Below are positions 1 through 40,123 of a stretch of DNA of 64,000 bases, piece by piece. The stretch lies in NCBI GenBank assembly GCA_024742875.1, contig JANSXP010000029.1:1-64000 (forward strand). Reading direction: 5' to 3'. A model generated the notes under the pieces. It saw only the letters and a program-made list of their open reading frames with translations. It was not told where the DNA came from and searched no databases. The translations under genes and the position numbers were made by a program. Source of the stretch: Planctomycetaceae bacterium (GTDB taxonomy: Bacteria; Planctomycetota; Planctomycetia; Planctomycetales; Planctomycetaceae). The number at the start of each line of letters is the position of its first letter. Position 1 is the stretch's first letter.

Positions 1-1551
1 AATGAACTGCAGCAGCAGAATAATGATGAAACAAAAGCCCGCTTCGGCCGGTGCTGGCACAGGTTCCTTGCCACGCGTCAGACTGCTCAGCCAGCCTTTG
101 ACACTGAATTTGTCGGCCGCCCGGAACAGCACACCTTCGCTGTTGTACAAATCAATGGCCCACCACAGCGCCATCACGCTGTAGCCAAAACTGGAAATCA
201 GCACCGGCACCGCATACGCCAGCAGTTCTCCATCGGGACTTTGTGACAGCAGCAGTCCCTTCAGCAATAGAGAAATATTGATGACAGGAATCACGCTGTA
301 AAGCGGCGTGATTTCCACGGCCGGCGACAGCGAGAACATCGTCAGGCCCATGATCACCATCAGCAGAGGCGTCAGATAGTACTGCCCTTCCTTGGTCGAT
401 TTGGCAAATGTCGCGAGTGCCAGACACAACGCACTAAACAAAGAAGCCAGCGGCACCAGCAAAATGGCCAGCCACACCAGCGATGTCATTCCGGGAAACT
501 CCAGCCCCACGACATTGTCCATGGTGGCTCCAATCGTGGACGCCATATGGCTGCCCGTCAGCCCCATGCTCAGCAGGTTCATCACGGCCGTGCCAATACT
601 AAACACCAGAATGGTGCCAAACTTGCCCAGCACCAGTTCCACGCGTCGCGCCGGACTGATCAGCAGCGTCTCCATCGTGCCGCGTTCCTTCTCACCGGCC
701 CCCAGGTCAATGGCCGGATAAAACGCGCCCGTTAGTGCCATAATCACAATCATCGCGGGGAACAGCTTGCTCCACACGTTGGCCGCCATCTCGTCACCAC
801 GAGCCATCTCAAACGACTTGATCGAAGCCGGATGAAACAGCTCCGAACGCAGATCTGCGTGCTCAAAGATATGGCGCCGCAGCTCGGTCTCCCAGGCCAG
901 AAACGCCTGCTCGACCCGGTCACTGGCCACCGCCGACTTGTCGTCCGCGCTGTTACGCACAATTCGCAGCACGGGCGGCTGAATCGAATCTGCCGACATT
1001 TCCGTATCATTCTTCAGACGACCAATCGCAGCAGCGTAGCCCTCAGGCACCATCACCAGAACCTGTACGCCGCTGCCGGCAAACAGGTCGGTCACCCGAT
1101 CCTCCTGCTCCCGCTTCTGTTCGGCCGAAAGCGTGGCCGGATCAACTGACATCAACTGGCTGATCTGTTCGGCCACCTGCTGGCCGTTGCGCAGCAGCTG
1201 CGCTGGTGTGCGACGTCGCCGCCCAGTCACCGCCGCCGCATTGTCGGCATCATACTGCCGATTATCAGCAATGATCTGCAGCCGCGCCGCGTCTTCGGCC
1301 CCGCCGGAAAACCACTGCTCGCCAATGCCATCTTCCGCCAGAAAAGCGGGCTCCTCTGGCAGCTGGTCCGCATTGAGCACCACCACCGAACGCTTCTGCT
1401 CGCTGAACGTGAGCATCATTTCCACCATGCCCAGTCCCAGCATGGGATACAGCAGCACTGGCAGAATGGTGATCATAAACAGCGTGCGGCGATCGCGCAG
1501 CTGATCACGAACCTCGCGCAGAAAGATGAGTTTGACGTTCTTCCAGCTCAT
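1..1551 (-). CDS. ABC-2 type (NatB-like) export permease, 3' end cut by window edge
   Basis: Membrane permease of an ABC exporter. The frame is open from an ATG at 1551 through base 1, so the stop lies outside the window and at least 517 residues are encoded. It begins with a hydrophobic segment (LFMITILPVLLYPML), followed by a long non-membrane region of about 250 residues, then several membrane segments. The stretch GAGEKERGTMETLL is the hallmark of NatB-type ABC-2 permeases (established knowledge). The ATPase gene ends 20 bases upstream of this start, so the two are one operon transcribed leftwards. Planctomycete homologues often carry a C-terminal CPBP protease-like domain; whether this one does cannot be seen. 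Substrate is unknown; sodium or drug export is only inferred from the family. Confidence 0.85.
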   Translation of the reverse strand, partial: MSWKNVKLIFLREVRDQLRDRRTLFMITILPVLLYPMLGLGMVEMMLTFSEQKRSVVVLNADQLPEEPAFLAEDGIGEQWFSGGAEDAARLQIIADNRQYDADNAAAVTGRRRRTPAQLLRNGQQVAEQISQLMSVDPATLSAEQKREQEDRVTDLFAGSGVQVLVMVPEGYAAAIGRLKNDTEMSADSIQPPVLRIVRNSADDKSAVASDRVEQAFLAWETELRRHIFEHADLRSELFHPASIKSFEMARGDEMAANVWSKLFPAMIVIMALTGAFYPAIDLGAGEKERGTMETLLISPARRVELVLGKFGTILVFSIGTAVMNLLSMGLTGSHMASTIGATMDNVVGLEFPGMTSLVWLAILLVPLASLFSALCLALATFAKSTKEGQYYLTPLLMVIMGLTMFSLSPAVEITPLYSVIPVINISLLLKGLLLSQSPDGELLAYAVPVLISSFGYSVMALWWAIDLYNSEGVLFRAADKFSVKGWLSSLTRGKEPVPAPAEAGFCFIIILLLQFI

Positions 1552-1571
1552 GGTGTTGCGTTATCCAGAGT

Positions 1572-2330
1572 CTAAGACGCGTGAGCCGCCAGTTCGTTTT
1601 CACGCTGCGCAATCAGATCGAAGAACAGCTCCTCGACGTCCTCCTGGTCATGACGCTCGGCCAGTTCCGGCAGCGTGCCATGATCCAGAATGCGTCCCCG
1701 GTGAATCACGGCAATACGATCACACAGCTTTTCCACTTCCCGCATGATGTGCGTCGAAAAGATGATGCACTTGCCCTGATCCTTCAGCGCTTCCACCGTT
1801 TGCAGCACATTGCGAGCCACCAGCACATCCAGCCCCGAACTGGGCTCGTCAAAGATGATCACGGGCGGATCGTGCACAATCGTTCTGGCAATCGACACCT
1901 TTTGACGCATTCCCGTCGACATCTTCGACCCCAGACGGTCCCGAATGTCGTTCATCTGCAGCGTGTCAAAGATATCCTCAATGCGGTCCTGCAGCCGATC
2001 TTCCGGAATGCCATACAGCCGACCGAAATACTCAACCATCTCCCGCGCCGTCATCCGGTCATAAATGCCCGTGTTGCACGACATGAATCCAATATTACGC
2101 CGCACGCCCTCGGCATCATGCATCACATTGATACCCGCCACCTCCGCCAGTCCCCGCGTGGGCTTCAGCACCGTGCTCAGAATCCGCAGACACGTCGTCT
2201 TGCCGGCCCCATTGGGCCCCAGCAGACCGAAAATCTCCCCCGGATGGACCTCAAACGACACATTGTCCAGCGCGCGAAACACACCGTTGGGGTCGTTGAA
2301 TTCCTTCGTGAGTCCCTGCACTCGTATCAT
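1572..2330 (-). CDS. ABC transporter ATP-binding protein, NatA-like
   Basis: Cytoplasmic ATPase partner of the permease that follows it. All nucleotide-binding motifs are visible in the 252 residues: Walker A GPNGAGKT (38-45), signature MSTGMRQ (137-143), Walker B VIIFDEP (157-163) and the H-loop histidine (194). The signature is the variant typical of NatA and ABC-2 exporters. The ATG at 2330 gives a normal beta-strand start ([11 protein letters not shown]). It is the first gene of a two-gene operon; upstream lies a 940-base repeat block. No substrate-specific signal is present in the ATPase. Confidence 0.9.
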
Positions 2331-2474
2331 GATGGCGTCTGGATTCCGTAATGTTTCCCAAATTCATCACTAAACTAGCACACCTCAGCCTCCGCGCCCG
2401 ACAACACACGCCACCCACCTCACTGGGCAACTTCAACCCCACCAGTCAAACCACCTCTAACGATTATTCCAGCC

Positions 2475-3268
2475 GGCCGGGACGCCCCGGCAGGCGGTGG
2501 CGGGGGTGGGCGGATTCTGCATGGCACGTCGCTGCGCCAAGGCGCTCCGCGTTGCTGCGCTATCGACAATCGGCCTGGCACCGCGTCTGGCCGGCCGGGA
2601 TGCCATGGCGGCGTGGGTGGCCGGGACGCCCCGGCAGGCGATGGCGTGGGGACGCCGGAACTGCGTGGAACGCGATGCGCCGAGTCGCTCCGCGTTGCTG
2701 CGCTATCGACAATCGGCGTGGCACCACGGTTGGACGGTCGGGACTCAACAACGAGCGATGGCGGCCGGGACGCCCCGGCGGGCGGTGGCGTGGGTGAGCC
2801 GAAGCTGCATGGGACGTCGATGCGCCAAGGCGCTCCGCGTTGCTGCGCTATCGACAATCGGCGCAGCACCGCGCTTAAGGCGGACTCAGGACGTGACGCG
2901 CTTGCCCGGGTGACCGCAGAGATGTCGTGAGCTGGGATACGACCCGGCCTGTATCGGTTCAGGCCCGGGAGTCTTCTTACAGGCGCGGTACCACGCAGTT
3001 TCGAAGTCCCCACTCCACCGCCCGCCGGGGCGTCCCGGCCAGGCGCGGTACCACGCCGATTGTCGACAGCGCAGCAACGCTGAGCGCCTTGGCGCATCGC
3101 GTTCCACGCAGTTTCAACGTCCCCACGCCATCGTCTGCCGGGGCAACCCGGCCAAGCGCGGTACTACGCCGATTGTCGACAGCGCAGCAACGCGGAGCGC
3201 CTCGGCGCAGCGACGTCCCACGCAGTTTTGACGGCCCCACGCCACCGCCCGCCGGGGCGTCCCGGCCG
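2475..3268. repeat. Six-copy ~110-bp repeat block, three direct then three inverted
   Basis: This gene-free stretch between the ABC operon and mqnC is filled with copies of one unit. Plus-orientation copies start near 2475, 2620 and 2764; minus-orientation copies lie at about 2983-3040 (centre deleted), 3046-3153 and 3158-3268. Each full unit has a GC-rich near-palindrome (CCGGGACGCCCCGG), a GT-rich spacer, a GCGCC-AA-GGCGC inverted repeat, the core CGCTCCGCGTTGCT, then GACAATCGG and a CACCGCG-like end. The two halves are mirror images around ~2940, so transcripts could fold into a very long hairpin. All six frames stay open by composition, so the many overlapping reading frames are not taken as genes. 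Related copies occur at 7199-7425. Confidence 0.85.
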
Positions 3269-3273
3269 ACCGG

Positions 3274-4410
3274 CTAGAGGATGGGGAGTGCTGGGGTGGC
3301 GGGTGGGGGTGGAGGCTGGAACTCTTTGCCTTCGTCGATGTATTCGTAGAAGACGTTGCGTTGGCGTGGGGTGTAACCGCTGTTTTGGATGCAGCGACGA
3401 ATCGCAGCCAGAGACAGGTGGTGGACAGTGCCGGCCTGGGAGACCACGTTCTCTTCGATCATGAGGCTGCCCATGTCGTTGGCGCCGAACATGAGTGCCA
3501 TCTGGCCCACTTTTTCGCCCTGGGTCACCCAGGAAGACTGGATGTTGGGAATGTTGTCCAGATAGAGGCGACTGACAGCCTGTGTTTTCAGGTATTCGAA
3601 GGCACCGGCGGGGGGGATGTGATCCATGTCGGTGTTGTCCGGCTGGAATGTCCAGCTGATGAAGGCGGTGAAGCCACCGGTTTCATCCTGCAGCTGGCGA
3701 ACGCGATCGAAGTGTTCGATGCGTTCTGCGAGGGTCTCCACATGACCAAACATCATGGTGGCTGTGGATTTGCCGCCGAGTTTGTGCCAGACACGCATGA
3801 CATTCAGCCAGTCGTCCGTCAGCACTTTGCCGCGTGTGATTTCTTTGCGAACGCGGTCCACAAGGATCTCACCACCGCCGCCTGGCAGACTGCCCAGTCC
3901 GGCGGCTTTCAGACGCTCCAGGACGGTTTCGAGCGGCAGTTTGGCGATCTTGGTGAAGTGATGAATTTCCGGCGGGCTAAAGCCATGCACGTTGACCTGC
4001 GGGAAGCGATCTTTGATCTGCCGCAGCATGTCTTCGTACCATTCCAGCGGCAGCTTGGGGTGGAGCCCTCCCTGCAGCAGGATCTGATCGCCGCCGAGTT
4101 CGACCGTTTCTTCGATCTTCTTGAGCAGCGTTTCGATCGGGAGCACGTAGACTTCCGGGTGTTCGGGCGGTCGATAGAACGCACAGAAATCACACACGGC
4201 CGTGCAGGCGTTGGTGTAGTTGATGTTGCGGTCGATGTTGTACGTGCGGAATGGCTCCGGATGCAGTCGCCGGGACACGGCATCCGCAGCGGCGCCGATG
4301 GCAGACAAATCGTGAGATTCCAGCAGGGCAACGCCTTCTTCGGGAGTCAGGCGTTCGCCGGCAACCGCTTTGTCAAGCAGTGACGAAATCGGAGAAGACG
4401 ACGTTGGCAT
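3274..4410 (-). CDS. mqnC: Cyclic dehypoxanthinyl futalosine synthase (radical SAM)
   Basis: Radical SAM enzyme of the futalosine route to menaquinone; it cyclises dehypoxanthine futalosine in the cytoplasm. From the start chosen, the 4Fe-4S cysteines are C69, C73 and C76 (CTAVCDFC), followed by the glycine-rich GGDQILLQGG strand and LPGGGGEILVDRVR typical of MqnC/MqnE. Length (378 residues) is normal for the family. The start at 4410 (MPTSSSPIS) has a weak AAAGAA ahead of it and overlaps the end of mqnA by 38 bases; an in-frame ATG at 4440 is possible. The proline-rich C-terminus (PPPPPATPALPIL) ends next to the repeat block. Translational coupling with mqnA is likely. Confidence 0.92.
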   Translation of the reverse strand: MPTSSSPISSLLDKAVAGERLTPEEGVALLESHDLSAIGAAADAVSRRLHPEPFRTYNIDRNINYTNACTAVCDFCAFYRPPEHPEVYVLPIETLLKKIEETVELGGDQILLQGGLHPKLPLEWYEDMLRQIKDRFPQVNVHGFSPPEIHHFTKIAKLPLETVLERLKAAGLGSLPGGGGEILVDRVRKEITRGKVLTDDWLNVMRVWHKLGGKSTATMMFGHVETLAERIEHFDRVRQLQDETGGFTAFISWTFQPDNTDMDHIPPAGAFEYLKTQAVSRLYLDNIPNIQSSWVTQGEKVGQMALMFGANDMGSLMIEENVVSQAGTVHHLSLAAIRRCIQNSGYTPRQRNVFYEYIDEGKEFQPPPPPATPALPIL

Positions 4411-5224
4411 TTCTTTTGACCAGATTGTGCTGTAAGGCAAGTTCGTGGAACAGCTTCAGTCCGCTGCGTTCAGCAGACGTCATGTGGTAGTACAGATTCT
4501 GTGTCAGATAGCGATGAGCGGTCTGCTCAGTGATGTTGAGCCCCGGAGCTTCGTCATGAGCGATGCGCTGCACGGCCGCAATCCCCTGATCACGAGCCGT
4601 GGACAAAGCGGACGCAATGCCCGTCATGTCGGCGTCGGCATGGGCCACCCACATGGCAAACACGAACGGCAGGCCCGTCCATTCATACCAGAGCTGTCCC
4701 AGGTCAAATTCTTCCACAAACGACTCCGCCGGGGAATGCATGGCCCGATCACCGATCAGCAGCACAGCGTCCGCCTGAGAGTCGGTCGTCCAGGAATCCA
4801 TCGACAGCGGTTCGGTGGATGGCGTCACGCCGTAGCGTTCCGCCAGAATGACCTTCGCCAGCGTAGCGCTGGTGCGGGATCCTTCATCCAGAGCCATCGT
4901 CTTTATTTCACCTGGATGAACGCGGCAGTAAAGCTTCACGCTCATCACCGGACCACGGGCCGCCACACAGGCGTCCGAGATGATGGCGTATCCGCCGCGG
5001 CGGAAGTACTCGATGGAGGGGATCAGCGCGACGTCCAGATTTCCGGCGGCCAGCGAATCCGCCAGGCGACTGGGATAATCCAGTTCGATGGAGGACCCCG
5101 GCAGCAGTTCTCCCAGCCCCTCAATGAGGGGGCGAGAATTCAGATAGCTGACGGCACCCAATCGGACCATTGCCGGCTGGGCATCTGGTTCGACTGAATT
5201 TGACATGATCGTACGCCTTAACAT
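4373..5224 (-). CDS. mqnA: Chorismate dehydratase (menaquinone biosynthesis)
   Basis: Converts chorismate to 3-[(1-carboxyvinyl)oxy]benzoate, the first step of the futalosine menaquinone pathway. The fold is that of a periplasmic-binding-protein type II; the N-terminal signature VRLGAVSYLNSRPL and the internal IPSIEYFRRGGYAII and DEGSRTSATLAKVIL are typical of MqnA. Several starts are possible: the frame is open to 5305, but ATG 5224 has GGAG six bases upstream and ATG 5206 (MSNSVEP) is closest to the family start. It overlaps mqnC. A plausible promoter lies at 5323-5350. Confidence 0.92.
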   Translation of the reverse strand: MLRRTIMSNSVEPDAQPAMVRLGAVSYLNSRPLIEGLGELLPGSSIELDYPSRLADSLAAGNLDVALIPSIEYFRRGGYAIISDACVAARGPVMSVKLYCRVHPGEIKTMALDEGSRTSATLAKVILAERYGVTPSTEPLSMDSWTTDSQADAVLLIGDRAMHSPAESFVEEFDLGQLWYEWTGLPFVFAMWVAHADADMTGIASALSTARDQGIAAVQRIAHDEAPGLNITEQTAHRYLTQNLYYHMTSAERSGLKLFHELALQHNLVKRNANVVFSDFVTA

Positions 5225-5719: not shown

Positions 5720-7237
5720 ATGGACAATTCGGAAATTCTGGTTCTGTGCAGCAGTCAGCCGGGGTTCATACGGTTTCTGGTCCCCCGGCTGGTCTCTCGC
5801 TGTCGACTCATGGAGTGCTACACTGTGGCCGAAGCGGCGCAGATGGCACAATCCCACCAGCCGGATCTCACGCTGCTGGACCTGCGCAACGGCGACCCCC
5901 GCAAGACGTCGCGGGCCCTCACCATTGCCCACAACGTTGCCGCCACACAACTGCTCGTCGTCTGCGGCCCCAACGAAATCACCAGCGCTCAGATCCCCGA
6001 GGAAATTGCCTATCGGGTGACACTCATCCCCCTGGACGAGAAGGAAGATCTGTCACATGTCGTCAGTGCCGTCGACTGTCGTCTGCAGCAACTGCGGACC
6101 GCCGGTGTGACTGTCGCCTGCGGTGCAGAACTCTCCCGATCAACACCTGCGTCGCCCAGTGTGCCGCAGACGGCGCCTCCTGCAGAAACCGAGTCCGATC
6201 CGCCTTCGAGCAGCATCCCCCTGTCCAGTCGCTTTCGCACGCAGACTCCCGATCTGAAACGCATGCTCGATCGACTGGAAGTCGCCGCCCGACACGATGT
6301 CACCATCCTGCTCATCGGCGAAACCGGCTCCGGCAAAACTCATCTGGCACGCCTCATCCACGAAGCCTCCGGTCGCCAGCAGCGACCCTTCGTCACGGTC
6401 GCCTGCGGTGCCCTGCCCGGTGACCTGATTGAAAGCGAACTGTTCGGGCACATCAAAGGCGCCTTCACCGGCGCTCACGCAGACAAAGATGGCAAATTCA
6501 TCGCCGCCGGCGACGGCACCATTTTGCTGGATGAAATCGATGTGCTCACCCCCGACCAGCAGGTCAAACTCCTGCGTGTCATTGAACAGGGACTGTTCGA
6601 GGCGGTGGGATCCAACCAAACCCTGAAGGTGCAGGCACGCATCATCGCAGCCAGCAACCTGCCCCTGGAACCGCTCGTCGAACAGCAGCGTTTCCGCCCC
6701 GATCTGTACTACCGACTCAACACCCTCTGCTTTCGCATCCCCCCCCTCCGCAGTCGGCTGCCAGACATCCAGCCGCTGGCCCGCTACTTTGTCCACCTGC
6801 ACGCCGACCGGCACGGCATTGAGATCACGCACATCAAAGATGACTTCTACGACTGCCTGCAGCAGTATCCGTGGCCTGGCAACGTCCGTGAAATGGAAAA
6901 CGCCATTCGCGGCGCCGTCATCTACTGTGCCGACGGTCACCTGGACTCCCGCGTTCTCCCGCCCAACATCCTGCACGGTGCCTCAGGGCCCAGCAGCGAC
7001 CCGTCCGTCACCACCTTCTTCGGCGGCCGCTCCGGAAAATCTCTCGGCAACCGCATCGAACTGACCGAACGCGAAATCATCGAACAGGCCCTGCAAAACA
7101 ACGCCTACAGTCGCACACGCACCGCCCGCCAACTCGGCATCAGTCGTGTCACCCTCTACAACAAAATGAAAAAATACGACATGATGCCCCGCCGCGGCCG
7201 CGACGTCGCGGCGGACGAGGGCGGGGATAGTCCATAA
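5720..7237 (+). CDS. Sigma-54-dependent transcriptional activator (NtrC family)
   Basis: AAA+ activator that would remodel sigma-54 RNA polymerase. The 505 residues show a receiver-like N-terminus (about 1-125), a Ser/Pro-rich linker, the AAA+ domain with Walker A GETGSGKT (200-207), GAFTGA loop (247-252), Walker B ILLDEID (268-274), RFRPDLYYRL and WPGNVREMEN, and a C-terminal Fis-type helix-turn-helix (TARQLGISRVTLYNKMKKYD). The receiver keeps a candidate aspartate (TLLDLRNGD) but other receiver residues are hard to place, so phosphorylation is uncertain. ATG 5720 is preferred over the TTG at 5705. The last 13 codons and the stop lie inside a 116-bp repeat, so the C-terminal tail has probably been replaced or extended by it. 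Confidence 0.88.
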   Translation: MDNSEILVLCSSQPGFIRFLVPRLVSRCRLMECYTVAEAAQMAQSHQPDLTLLDLRNGDPRKTSRALTIAHNVAATQLLVVCGPNEITSAQIPEEIAYRVTLIPLDEKEDLSHVVSAVDCRLQQLRTAGVTVACGAELSRSTPASPSVPQTAPPAETESDPPSSSIPLSSRFRTQTPDLKRMLDRLEVAARHDVTILLIGETGSGKTHLARLIHEASGRQQRPFVTVACGALPGDLIESELFGHIKGAFTGAHADKDGKFIAAGDGTILLDEIDVLTPDQQVKLLRVIEQGLFEAVGSNQTLKVQARIIAASNLPLEPLVEQQRFRPDLYYRLNTLCFRIPPLRSRLPDIQPLARYFVHLHADRHGIEITHIKDDFYDCLQQYPWPGNVREMENAIRGAVIYCADGHLDSRVLPPNILHGASGPSSDPSVTTFFGGRSGKSLGNRIELTEREIIEQALQNNAYSRTRTARQLGISRVTLYNKMKKYDMMPRRGRDVAADEGGDSP

Positions 7238-7425
7238 AAAGACGGCGTCAATGCGCCGAGCCGCTCCGCGTTGCTTCGCTCACGACACCCGACATGGCAC
7301 CGCTCGTGGCCGATCGCGACGTCGCGGCGGACGTGGGCGGGGACAGTCCGTAAAGAGACGACGTCACCGCGCCGAGCCGCTCCGCGTTGCTTCGCTCACG
7401 ACTTCCGTGCTCCCACCGCGCGTGG
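7199..7425 (+). repeat. Two tandem ~116-bp repeats related to the 2.5-3.3 kb block
   Basis: Copy 1 begins at 7199 and copy 2 at 7315, each with the perfect palindrome CGCGACGTCGCG. The copies then share a GGCGGACG-GGGCGGGGA stretch, AGTCC-TAAA, GCGCCGAGC and the core CGCTCCGCGTTGCT followed by TCGCTCACGAC. The core and the order of parts match the repeats at 2475-3268. Copy 1 overlaps the 3' end of the sigma-54 activator and supplies its stop codon. The rest, to 7514, contains no gene. Confidence 0.8.
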
Positions 7426-14491: not shown

Positions 14492-14503
14492 ACGTCGGGA
14501 TCC

Positions 14504-14593
14504 AAACAGCTGACGCCCAGCAAACAGCTGACGCCCAGCAAATAGCTGACGTCCGGCAAGCGGCTGACGTCCAGCAAGCGGCTGACGTCCAGC
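14504..14593 (+). repeat. Five-copy 18-bp tandem repeat
   Basis: Consensus AAnCGGCTGACGTCCAGC; copies start at 14504, 14522, 14540, 14558 and 14576 with few changes between neighbours. It begins 12 bases after the stop of the hydratase gene. Because 18 is a multiple of three, all frames through it remain open and produce spurious repeat-rich frames on both strands; no gene is called. The rest of the gap to 14809 shows nothing recognisable. Confidence 0.85.
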
Positions 14594-14809
14594 AAGCGCC
14601 CGGCACCTCACCTGTGCCAGCAGACACGCCCGGGTTGAATCAGAACGATCAGGCAGGGGCGTTTGCCGCCGCAGGGCTGCAGGGCCCGCCCCCCCACACC
14701 TGACCGACTCTGCACATTCGCCTGTCACGATGCATTATGGCCTGCCTGCCTTTCGGGCTGAAGCTGTTACCCCGTTTCGTTTCACCAGTTTGCCCCAAAG
14801 AGAGTCCTC

Positions 14810-40076: not shown

Positions 40077-40123
40077 GGAACGCCTTTGACGGAACGCCTT
40101 TAACGGAACACCTTTAACGGAAC
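40077..40123. repeat. 14-bp tandem repeat in divergent intergenic region
   Basis: Three full copies of GGAACGCCTTTAAC (40077-40090, 40091-40104, 40105-40118; one or two changes) and the start of a fourth. It lies between the minus-strand cluster (start 39955 or 40033) and the plus-strand gene at 40330, where both promoters must be. An iteron-like operator is possible. Confidence 0.7.

Follow-up and report, generated by a model that had tools for sequence, protein, structure and literature searches.

The block at positions 2475-3268 of the window (the whole stretch of 64,000 nucleotides analysed here, from a Planctomycetaceae bacterium) raises the question of what a mirror-image set of repeats represents and how it bears on the genes at either side. 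Our best reading is that two arrays of a structured, REP-like repeat stand back to back here, the repeat having expanded within this Fuerstiella lineage.

The mirror block and its repeat family

The original prediction described three direct copies of an approximately 110-bp repeat starting at 2475, 2620 and 2764, followed by inverted copies at 2983 (with a deletion), 3046 and 3158. This mirror image is real: the unit is 113 bp long and is present as three direct, one half and two full inverted copies. By repeat analysis and profile matches, the direct units lie on the plus strand at 2475-2588 (outer head at 2475), 2619-2731 and 2763-2876, with a partial copy, a head remnant, between the first two (2590-2609, plus strand; family D4, 85% to the reference copy). 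On the minus strand, profile matches place full units at 3041-3153 and 3154-3267, and the copy at approximately 2987-3041 has indeed lost part of its length, since it retains the head half alone (model positions 2-56). The center between the tail ends (2877-2986) has no BLAST match (E 0.01) to 15 other spacers. The proposed long imperfect palindrome is borne out by three arm pairs of 115-126 nt that are 83-90% complementary. Both neighboring genes are on the minus strand, in agreement with their reading as co-directional: an ABC-transporter ATPase gene (1572-2330), whose start faces the left array, and a mqnC-like gene (3274-4410), which has CofH/MqnC C-terminal and radical SAM domains by domain search. 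No gene reads into the left array, and the outer head of the right array, at 3267, lies 6 bp behind the stop of the mqnC-like gene. A second array in the window contains two units, both on the plus strand (7196-7307 and 7312-7423), and starts inside the 3' end of a sigma-54 activator gene (5810-7237, plus strand), the last codons of which fall in the head. Rfam 15 models gave no match at E up to 1 in window 1500-4500. Within window 2300-3400 we found no sigma-70-type promoter and a single candidate intrinsic terminator (a GC-rich stem with a T run), at 2410-2431, outside the units.

A genome-wide search with the block, as had been suggested for checking the prediction, revealed a dispersed family with 162 BLAST matches in its own genome (8.18 Mb, 168 contigs). 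A profile built from the units gave 135 matches in 46 clusters within the loci fetched from the BLAST matches and the window. The 17-base core, with one mismatch at most, occurs 61 times in the genome compared to 0 times for a reversed control, and together with the BLAST matches this indicates that the family is not a product of chance. The discovery set is made up of these 46 clusters, including 2 from the window, which were picked by BLAST similarity to the block; the 19 clusters of a validation set fetched later were picked by model R1, which was limited to 150 candidates in each genome and gave at least 147 matches; neither set was picked by skew. Both L173 clusters were left out of the validation set, one repeating L049 and the other having its head at a contig end. 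Several draft contigs (C40, C41, C104, C105, C111, C120, C136, C141, C147, C157 and C166) end in or beside arrays, so that the assembly was probably broken there and arrays are probably under-counted.

The consensus of the long form in this genome has 113 positions, and the model of a shorter form has 71. Seven congeneric genomes lack the 17-base core even when one mismatch is allowed, and among 170 genomes of the order a 19-base core occurs in none of the 169 besides this one. With strict filters, a covariance model of the head half, for which 29 candidates per genome were scored, has matches in 7 of 8 Fuerstiella genomes; the remaining 162 genomes yield a single marginal match (E 8.5e-4). 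The shorter form is present in six congeners. This distribution indicates that the head is a genus-level element and that the 113-bp form is an expansion in this lineage. Among copies in the relatives, 12 of 25 start on or directly behind a stop triplet (by eye, frames unchecked). At the orthologous sites of the block in 5 of 7 relatives the block is absent, the sites being too diverged to show a target-site duplication, and for the other two the spacing of flanking matches alone was seen. A MITE or foldback transposon would be marked by such a duplication together with terminal inverted repeats; the arrays themselves are inverted repeats. A comparison of 16 central spacers found no sequence common to all, and a shared mobile cargo in the array center was rejected on this ground; a few spacers contain pieces of another repeat. 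The spacer at L037 includes a second repeat (2596-2670) with many matches in a relative (G006). A plasmid or phage origin found no match with blastn 'distant'. The 19-base core does occur in 5 viral contigs, one of which has weak matches to the unit model (best E 0.0007, L182 964-1044).

The proposal of a structured non-autonomous element or RNA is supported by this dispersal and by covariation across copies. The head folds into a 6-bp hairpin, and the hairpin loop pairs, as a pseudoknot, with bases that follow directly (13 pairs in all). Standard pairs fill 95.9% of pair cells across 28 sequences (22 from six relatives and 6 from this genome) compared to 33-52% in slid versions of the pairing, these being counts over related sequences, not independent events, for which shuffles overstate significance. 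In this alignment 21 rows have GC at the hairpin pair 6-13, 6 have AU and 1 has CG; at the loop-tail pair 11-22, 24 rows have CG and 4 have UA. The 46 own-genome units of alignment A1, taken from the 135 matches, have 98.4% of pair cells paired, with GC in 33 and CG in 9 at pair 6-13, and CG in 40 and UA in 4 at pair 11-22. The hairpin was named after inspecting alignments and then counted; RNAalifold alone did not recover it. The compensatory changes thus back both the hairpin and the loop-tail pseudoknot. Given that the loop-tail pair is impossible in duplex DNA, it points to RNA or single-stranded DNA, and judging from sequence the head may form in RNA.

Units at gene ends and the likeness to REP elements

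Gene calls came from a home-made program that relies on codon usage and had been trained on the window. We found that 42 of the 53 discovery heads with a gene within 1 kb face the 3' end of that gene (binomial p 2e-5); 29 heads lie at -1 to 16 nt from the stop, and 11 of the 42 gene-end-facing heads are read into, in frame, by 34-46 nt. The validation set is similar, with 20 of 24 heads facing a 3' end, 11 at -1 to 16 nt from the stop, and 5 of the 20 read into by 18-41 nt. At the junctions, many heads begin on the stop codon (TAG, TAA or TGA) or a few bases behind it. Copies lying consistently in frame within conserved genes would have spoken for a coding repeat; the frames show no conserved protein and about half of the heads (29/53 and 11/24) start at or just behind a stop, so that a coding repeat was rejected and the reading of the block as non-coding is upheld. 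Since about half of the heads lie within 16 nt of a stop, the unit there is the first thing in the 3' untranslated region. We reason that in RNA the unit might serve as a 3'-end structure that protects, terminates or brakes.

Comparison with relatives indicates that at L037 15999-17840 and L027 8035-9678 the ancestral stop is kept with the unit right behind it, and that at L037 930-2519 and L027 2069-2584 the last codons are replaced by residues encoded in the head. The latter two proteins end in GRDAPAG-type peptides in place of the C-terminus found in relatives. The mqnC-like protein of the window has its C-terminus two residues earlier than most relatives do. At the own-genome loci, stops adjoining units are TAG in 20 cases, TAA in 12 and TGA in 5, and those of other genes are TGA in 100, TAG in 77 and TAA in 62; TGA looks under-used beside units. 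All clusters of mixed orientation are arranged head-out (17/17 discovery, 6/6 validation), and 9 of the 12 discovery mixed clusters with both neighbors called lie between convergent genes. Most mirror arrays probably come about where each of two convergent genes carries an array. A comparable arrangement occurs in a relative (G007), where two short units lie head-out between two converging open frames (L200 3278-3428).

These features resemble those of REP and BIME elements. REPs are described as palindromic, high-copy, intergenic elements, often no more than 20 bp from gene 3' ends, which form head-head pairs between convergent genes and sometimes supply a TAG stop or coding residues (PMC3733652). 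In Escherichia coli, REPs within 15 nt of stop codons are reported to stall ribosomes (PMC12306157). The present element is likewise a high-copy, palindromic, intergenic repeat with a covarying hairpin head, inverted pairs and a preference for gene 3' ends. It differs from the GTAG and CGTC super-families of REP/BIME in unit size (113 bp, or 71 positions in the short form, compared to 20-40 bp), in having a loop-tail pseudoknot and tandem arrays, and in lacking a constant GTAG or CGTC tag: the bases before the head vary, with a stop triplet mostly where a gene ends. With regard to a RAYT transposase (Y1, PF01797), we found 0 matches at E 0.001 in this draft genome, while 6 of 8 genomes of the genus have PF01797 matches. 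We took 20 of the 30 Y1 matches listed, and one of these 20 neighborhoods contained the element at E <0.01, which leaves a REP driven by RAYT unsupported. In that neighborhood (L200 of G007, Y1 transposase region at 1420-2030), the transposase gene has beside it a repeat of another kind, present as inverted copies and bearing an A/T run (by eye), and the present element lies at a distance of 1.4 kb. The element thus works like a REP in placement, and we do not file it as one because its size, its tag and its RAYT association all differ.

The placement of related copies also recalls other systems. Rickettsia palindromic elements (RPE) are structured repeats that lie between and inside genes, sometimes in frame; those inside genes are named in PMC3733652. 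The element described here differs in that it lies mainly at gene ends, in arrays and with polarized flanks. With regard to in-frame insertion inside genes, in one relative (G001) a related short copy lies antisense inside an open IS91-type transposase frame (L083 1400-1720, Pfam Y2_Tnp and Zn_Tnp_IS91), while the copies of this genome are at gene ends or between genes. Similar copies occur at L087, L091, L094 and L097; the five that were compared do not differ over 321 bp, and the model score is the same at seven places, which indicates that in G001 the short element rides on an insertion sequence. The GC clusters of yeast mitochondria have a hairpin nature, and we know of no gene-end rule for them. 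They are small mobile GC-rich elements (PMC4478555), and they differ from the present element in being mitochondrial and in their AG target nucleotides.

Strand skew and substitution outside the heads

We found that the DNA outside the heads has a strong and polarized composition, referred to here as the halo. With GC skew measured over 500 bp outside each head and read toward the array, the skew is negative at 53 of 53 discovery heads (mean -0.238, one about zero) and at 24 of 24 validation heads (mean -0.204), such that C is abundant and G scarce on the inbound strand outside each of the 77 heads measured. Flanks on the tail side have a mean of 0.001 (n=22) and 0.020 (n=11, validation). The halo decays from -0.265 in the first 250 bp to -0.128 at 1 kb, -0.074 at 2 kb and approximately -0.04 at 3 kb, and AT skew in the first 250 bp outside heads is +0.212. 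At the mirror block, the left halo (475-2474) is C-rich and G-poor on the plus strand, with a GC skew of -0.32 in the nearest 300 bp, and the right halo (3268-4467) is G-rich on the plus strand, with +0.25 in the nearest 300 bp. Gene 3' ends more than 3 kb from any unit have a mean skew of +0.013 (sd 0.075, n=141), and ordinary chromosomal skew was rejected on this ground. The halo is equally strong where the neighboring gene points away from the head (-0.235 for 11 heads; -0.257 for 4 heads in validation). It does not depend on dose: single-unit heads (27) have a mean of -0.209 and two-unit heads (29) of -0.241 (rank correlation p 0.39), so that array length was rejected as a cause.

In a blind scan of the window, the two arrays rank first and second (0.45 and 0.27), with the next site at 0.24. 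Across 303,551 bases in 14 regions, 13 of which were fetched because they bear units, the top 11 of 27 upward flips of at least 0.22 hold units; the 13 upward flips without a unit are all weaker than these, and downward flips reach -0.37 without a unit. The clearest exception is L167 7400-9300, where plus-strand skew is near -0.3 at both ends with no detected unit beside it. The short element of the relatives, at 24 loci, has little skew (mean -0.039 in the nearest 300 bp and 0.001 in the next). At 21 E. coli REP loci, located with REP consensus sequences, the halo is absent, and the mean skew is opposite (+0.092 over 42 flanks, 6 of them negative).

Substitutions were polarized in six array-adjoining genes at third positions of the unit-sense strand, with 3-7 relatives as reference and duplicate relatives removed. 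G changed to C at 125 of 422 sites compared to 10 of 332 for C to G, and T to C at 94 of 139 compared to 29 of 332 for C to T; the remaining counts are 22/137 for A to C, 12/332 for C to A and 35/422 for G to A. One of the six genes, L037 15999-17840, has relatives merely 57-60% identical in protein; without it the counts are 99/348 (G to C), 8/264 (C to G), 78/113 (T to C) and 24/264 (C to T). At four-fold sites of the four same-sense genes, G changed to C at 40 of 72 and to A at 1 of 72. The four-fold rates of change to C from G, T and A are 49/92, 10/19 and 5/10 in five same-sense genes, and 40/72, 9/18 and 4/9 in four. The overall spectrum, with every base moving to C, differs from that of plain cytosine deamination. 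In the relatives the same six genes are unskewed (third-position C 0.28-0.32 and G 0.29-0.35, compared to C of 0.46-0.63 in this genome). At the six genes compared, then, the change from G, T and A to C is specific to this lineage.

At L037, C is gained on the plus strand to the left of the array and G to its right, and in the mqnC-like gene third positions have moved to C on the sense strand. The ABC-transporter gene is read the other way, and C reaches 0.64 at its four-fold sites on that same strand of the DNA, the unit-sense plus strand, with two-fold sites showing mainly G to A and T to C on that strand; codon preference is rejected as the cause of the skew because of this gene. In a gene 1.9 kb from a head the substitutions are unbiased, even though C is abundant (0.61) at its four-fold sites, and two L037 genes more than 2.5 kb away, a small control, have no such bias (G to C 19/110, C to G 9/83, T to C 17/37, C to T 22/83). 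The own-lineage silent rate per 300 bp from the head (0.33, 0.29, 0.34, 0.16, 0.11, 0.31 and 0.22) has no steady fall, and at all distances amino-acid changes run at about two to four times the level seen in the relatives. A higher rate of change at the head is therefore not supported.

What might cause the halo

We considered whether the units simply insert into, or survive at, existing skew switches. The unrelated unit number and skew, the relatives that carry the short element without skew, and the flips without units would all agree with such passive units. The same six genes, however, are unskewed in the relatives, the skew peaks at heads and with their polarity, and the 11 largest upward flips all hold units (with 13 of the 14 regions fetched for units), and we regard this explanation as unlikely. 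A selective cause would be that RNA entering an array is kept C-rich and G-poor for loading of Rho, the arrays being two-way transcription stops. Rho sites are C-rich, G-poor RNA, mirror arrays lie mostly between convergent genes, and the similar rates at which four-fold sites reach C from G, T and A resemble a preferred state more than one mutational type. Rho should not load within translated genes, however, into which the skew extends 2 kb, and the skew is just as strong where the neighboring gene points away; moreover, the sole site resembling an intrinsic terminator in window 2300-3400 is outside the units. We hold selection for Rho loading to be distinctly unlikely.

It might also be that the repeats are an ordinary REP/BIME family moved by a RAYT transposase and that skew is a general trait of REPs. 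REPs are described as following gene ends and as forming head-head pairs where genes converge (PMC3733652), which would fit; a genome without a Y1 match, a single element-bearing neighborhood among 20 whose transposase adjoins a different inverted repeat, and the opposite mean skew at the E. coli loci make it very unlikely. Another thought is that mRNA 3' ends are reverse-transcribed with priming at the unit and that the resulting error-rich cDNA recombines into the gene; this would account for gene-sense placement behind stops and for a bias that fades with distance. It would not lead one to expect equal skew at the heads (11 and 4) from which transcription of the neighboring gene leads away, the left side of the mirror block included, and we give it only a slim chance.

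We favor recurrent outward strand synthesis or transcription from the heads as the cause of the halo. Some process would begin at the head and run outward. This could be DNA synthesis at the folded array that proceeds in one direction and either displaces a strand or fills a gap, or it could be antisense transcription with R-loops. One strand might thereby be left single or be re-made by an error-prone polymerase, and errors would pile up as skew. The data appear to fit synthesis and transcription alike. A REP-like 3'-end element with an outward process from its heads is the best explanation as a whole, and we place it somewhat short of an even chance. A bolder form, which we consider possible and on the unlikely side, is that strand synthesis or exposure, recurrent and in one direction, starts at the folded heads, extends outward into the neighboring genes and in the course of evolution rewrites the silent sites of approximately 2 kb and some C-termini, which would make this a repeat with its own polarized mutation field.

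Were the flank skew mutational, a small non-coding repeat could subject unrelated neighboring genes to a directional substitution regime. This would bear on the interpretation of codon usage, GC skew and local mutation patterns, and would provide a natural setting for testing, one locus at a time, where strand asymmetry comes from. Were it selective, the halo would point to a large-scale 3'-end signal in planctomycetes. In the titles and abstracts that searches of open-licence papers listed, we found no counterpart to the halo and neither its mutational nor its selective version described.

Two known processes share parts of this pattern. At vertebrate gene starts, strand-specific substitutions occur in the first 1-2 kbp of the transcript with a GC-skew spike at the 5' end (PMC2927911). 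In that account the skew is just above 0.1 and transitions are what is analyzed, whereas the skew here is about -0.27, all bases move to C on the inbound strand, and the setting is bacterial and linked to a repeat. In Caulobacter, G:C to C:G transversions by the ImuB/ImuC (DnaE2) mutasome need imuB and imuC (PMC3901139), and G to C is the commonest change here as well; the Caulobacter spectrum, as that paper's account presents it, differs in being UV-induced and not localized. Elsewhere in the window, short tandem repeats with periods of 18 and 14 lie at 14503-14595 and 40077-40123.
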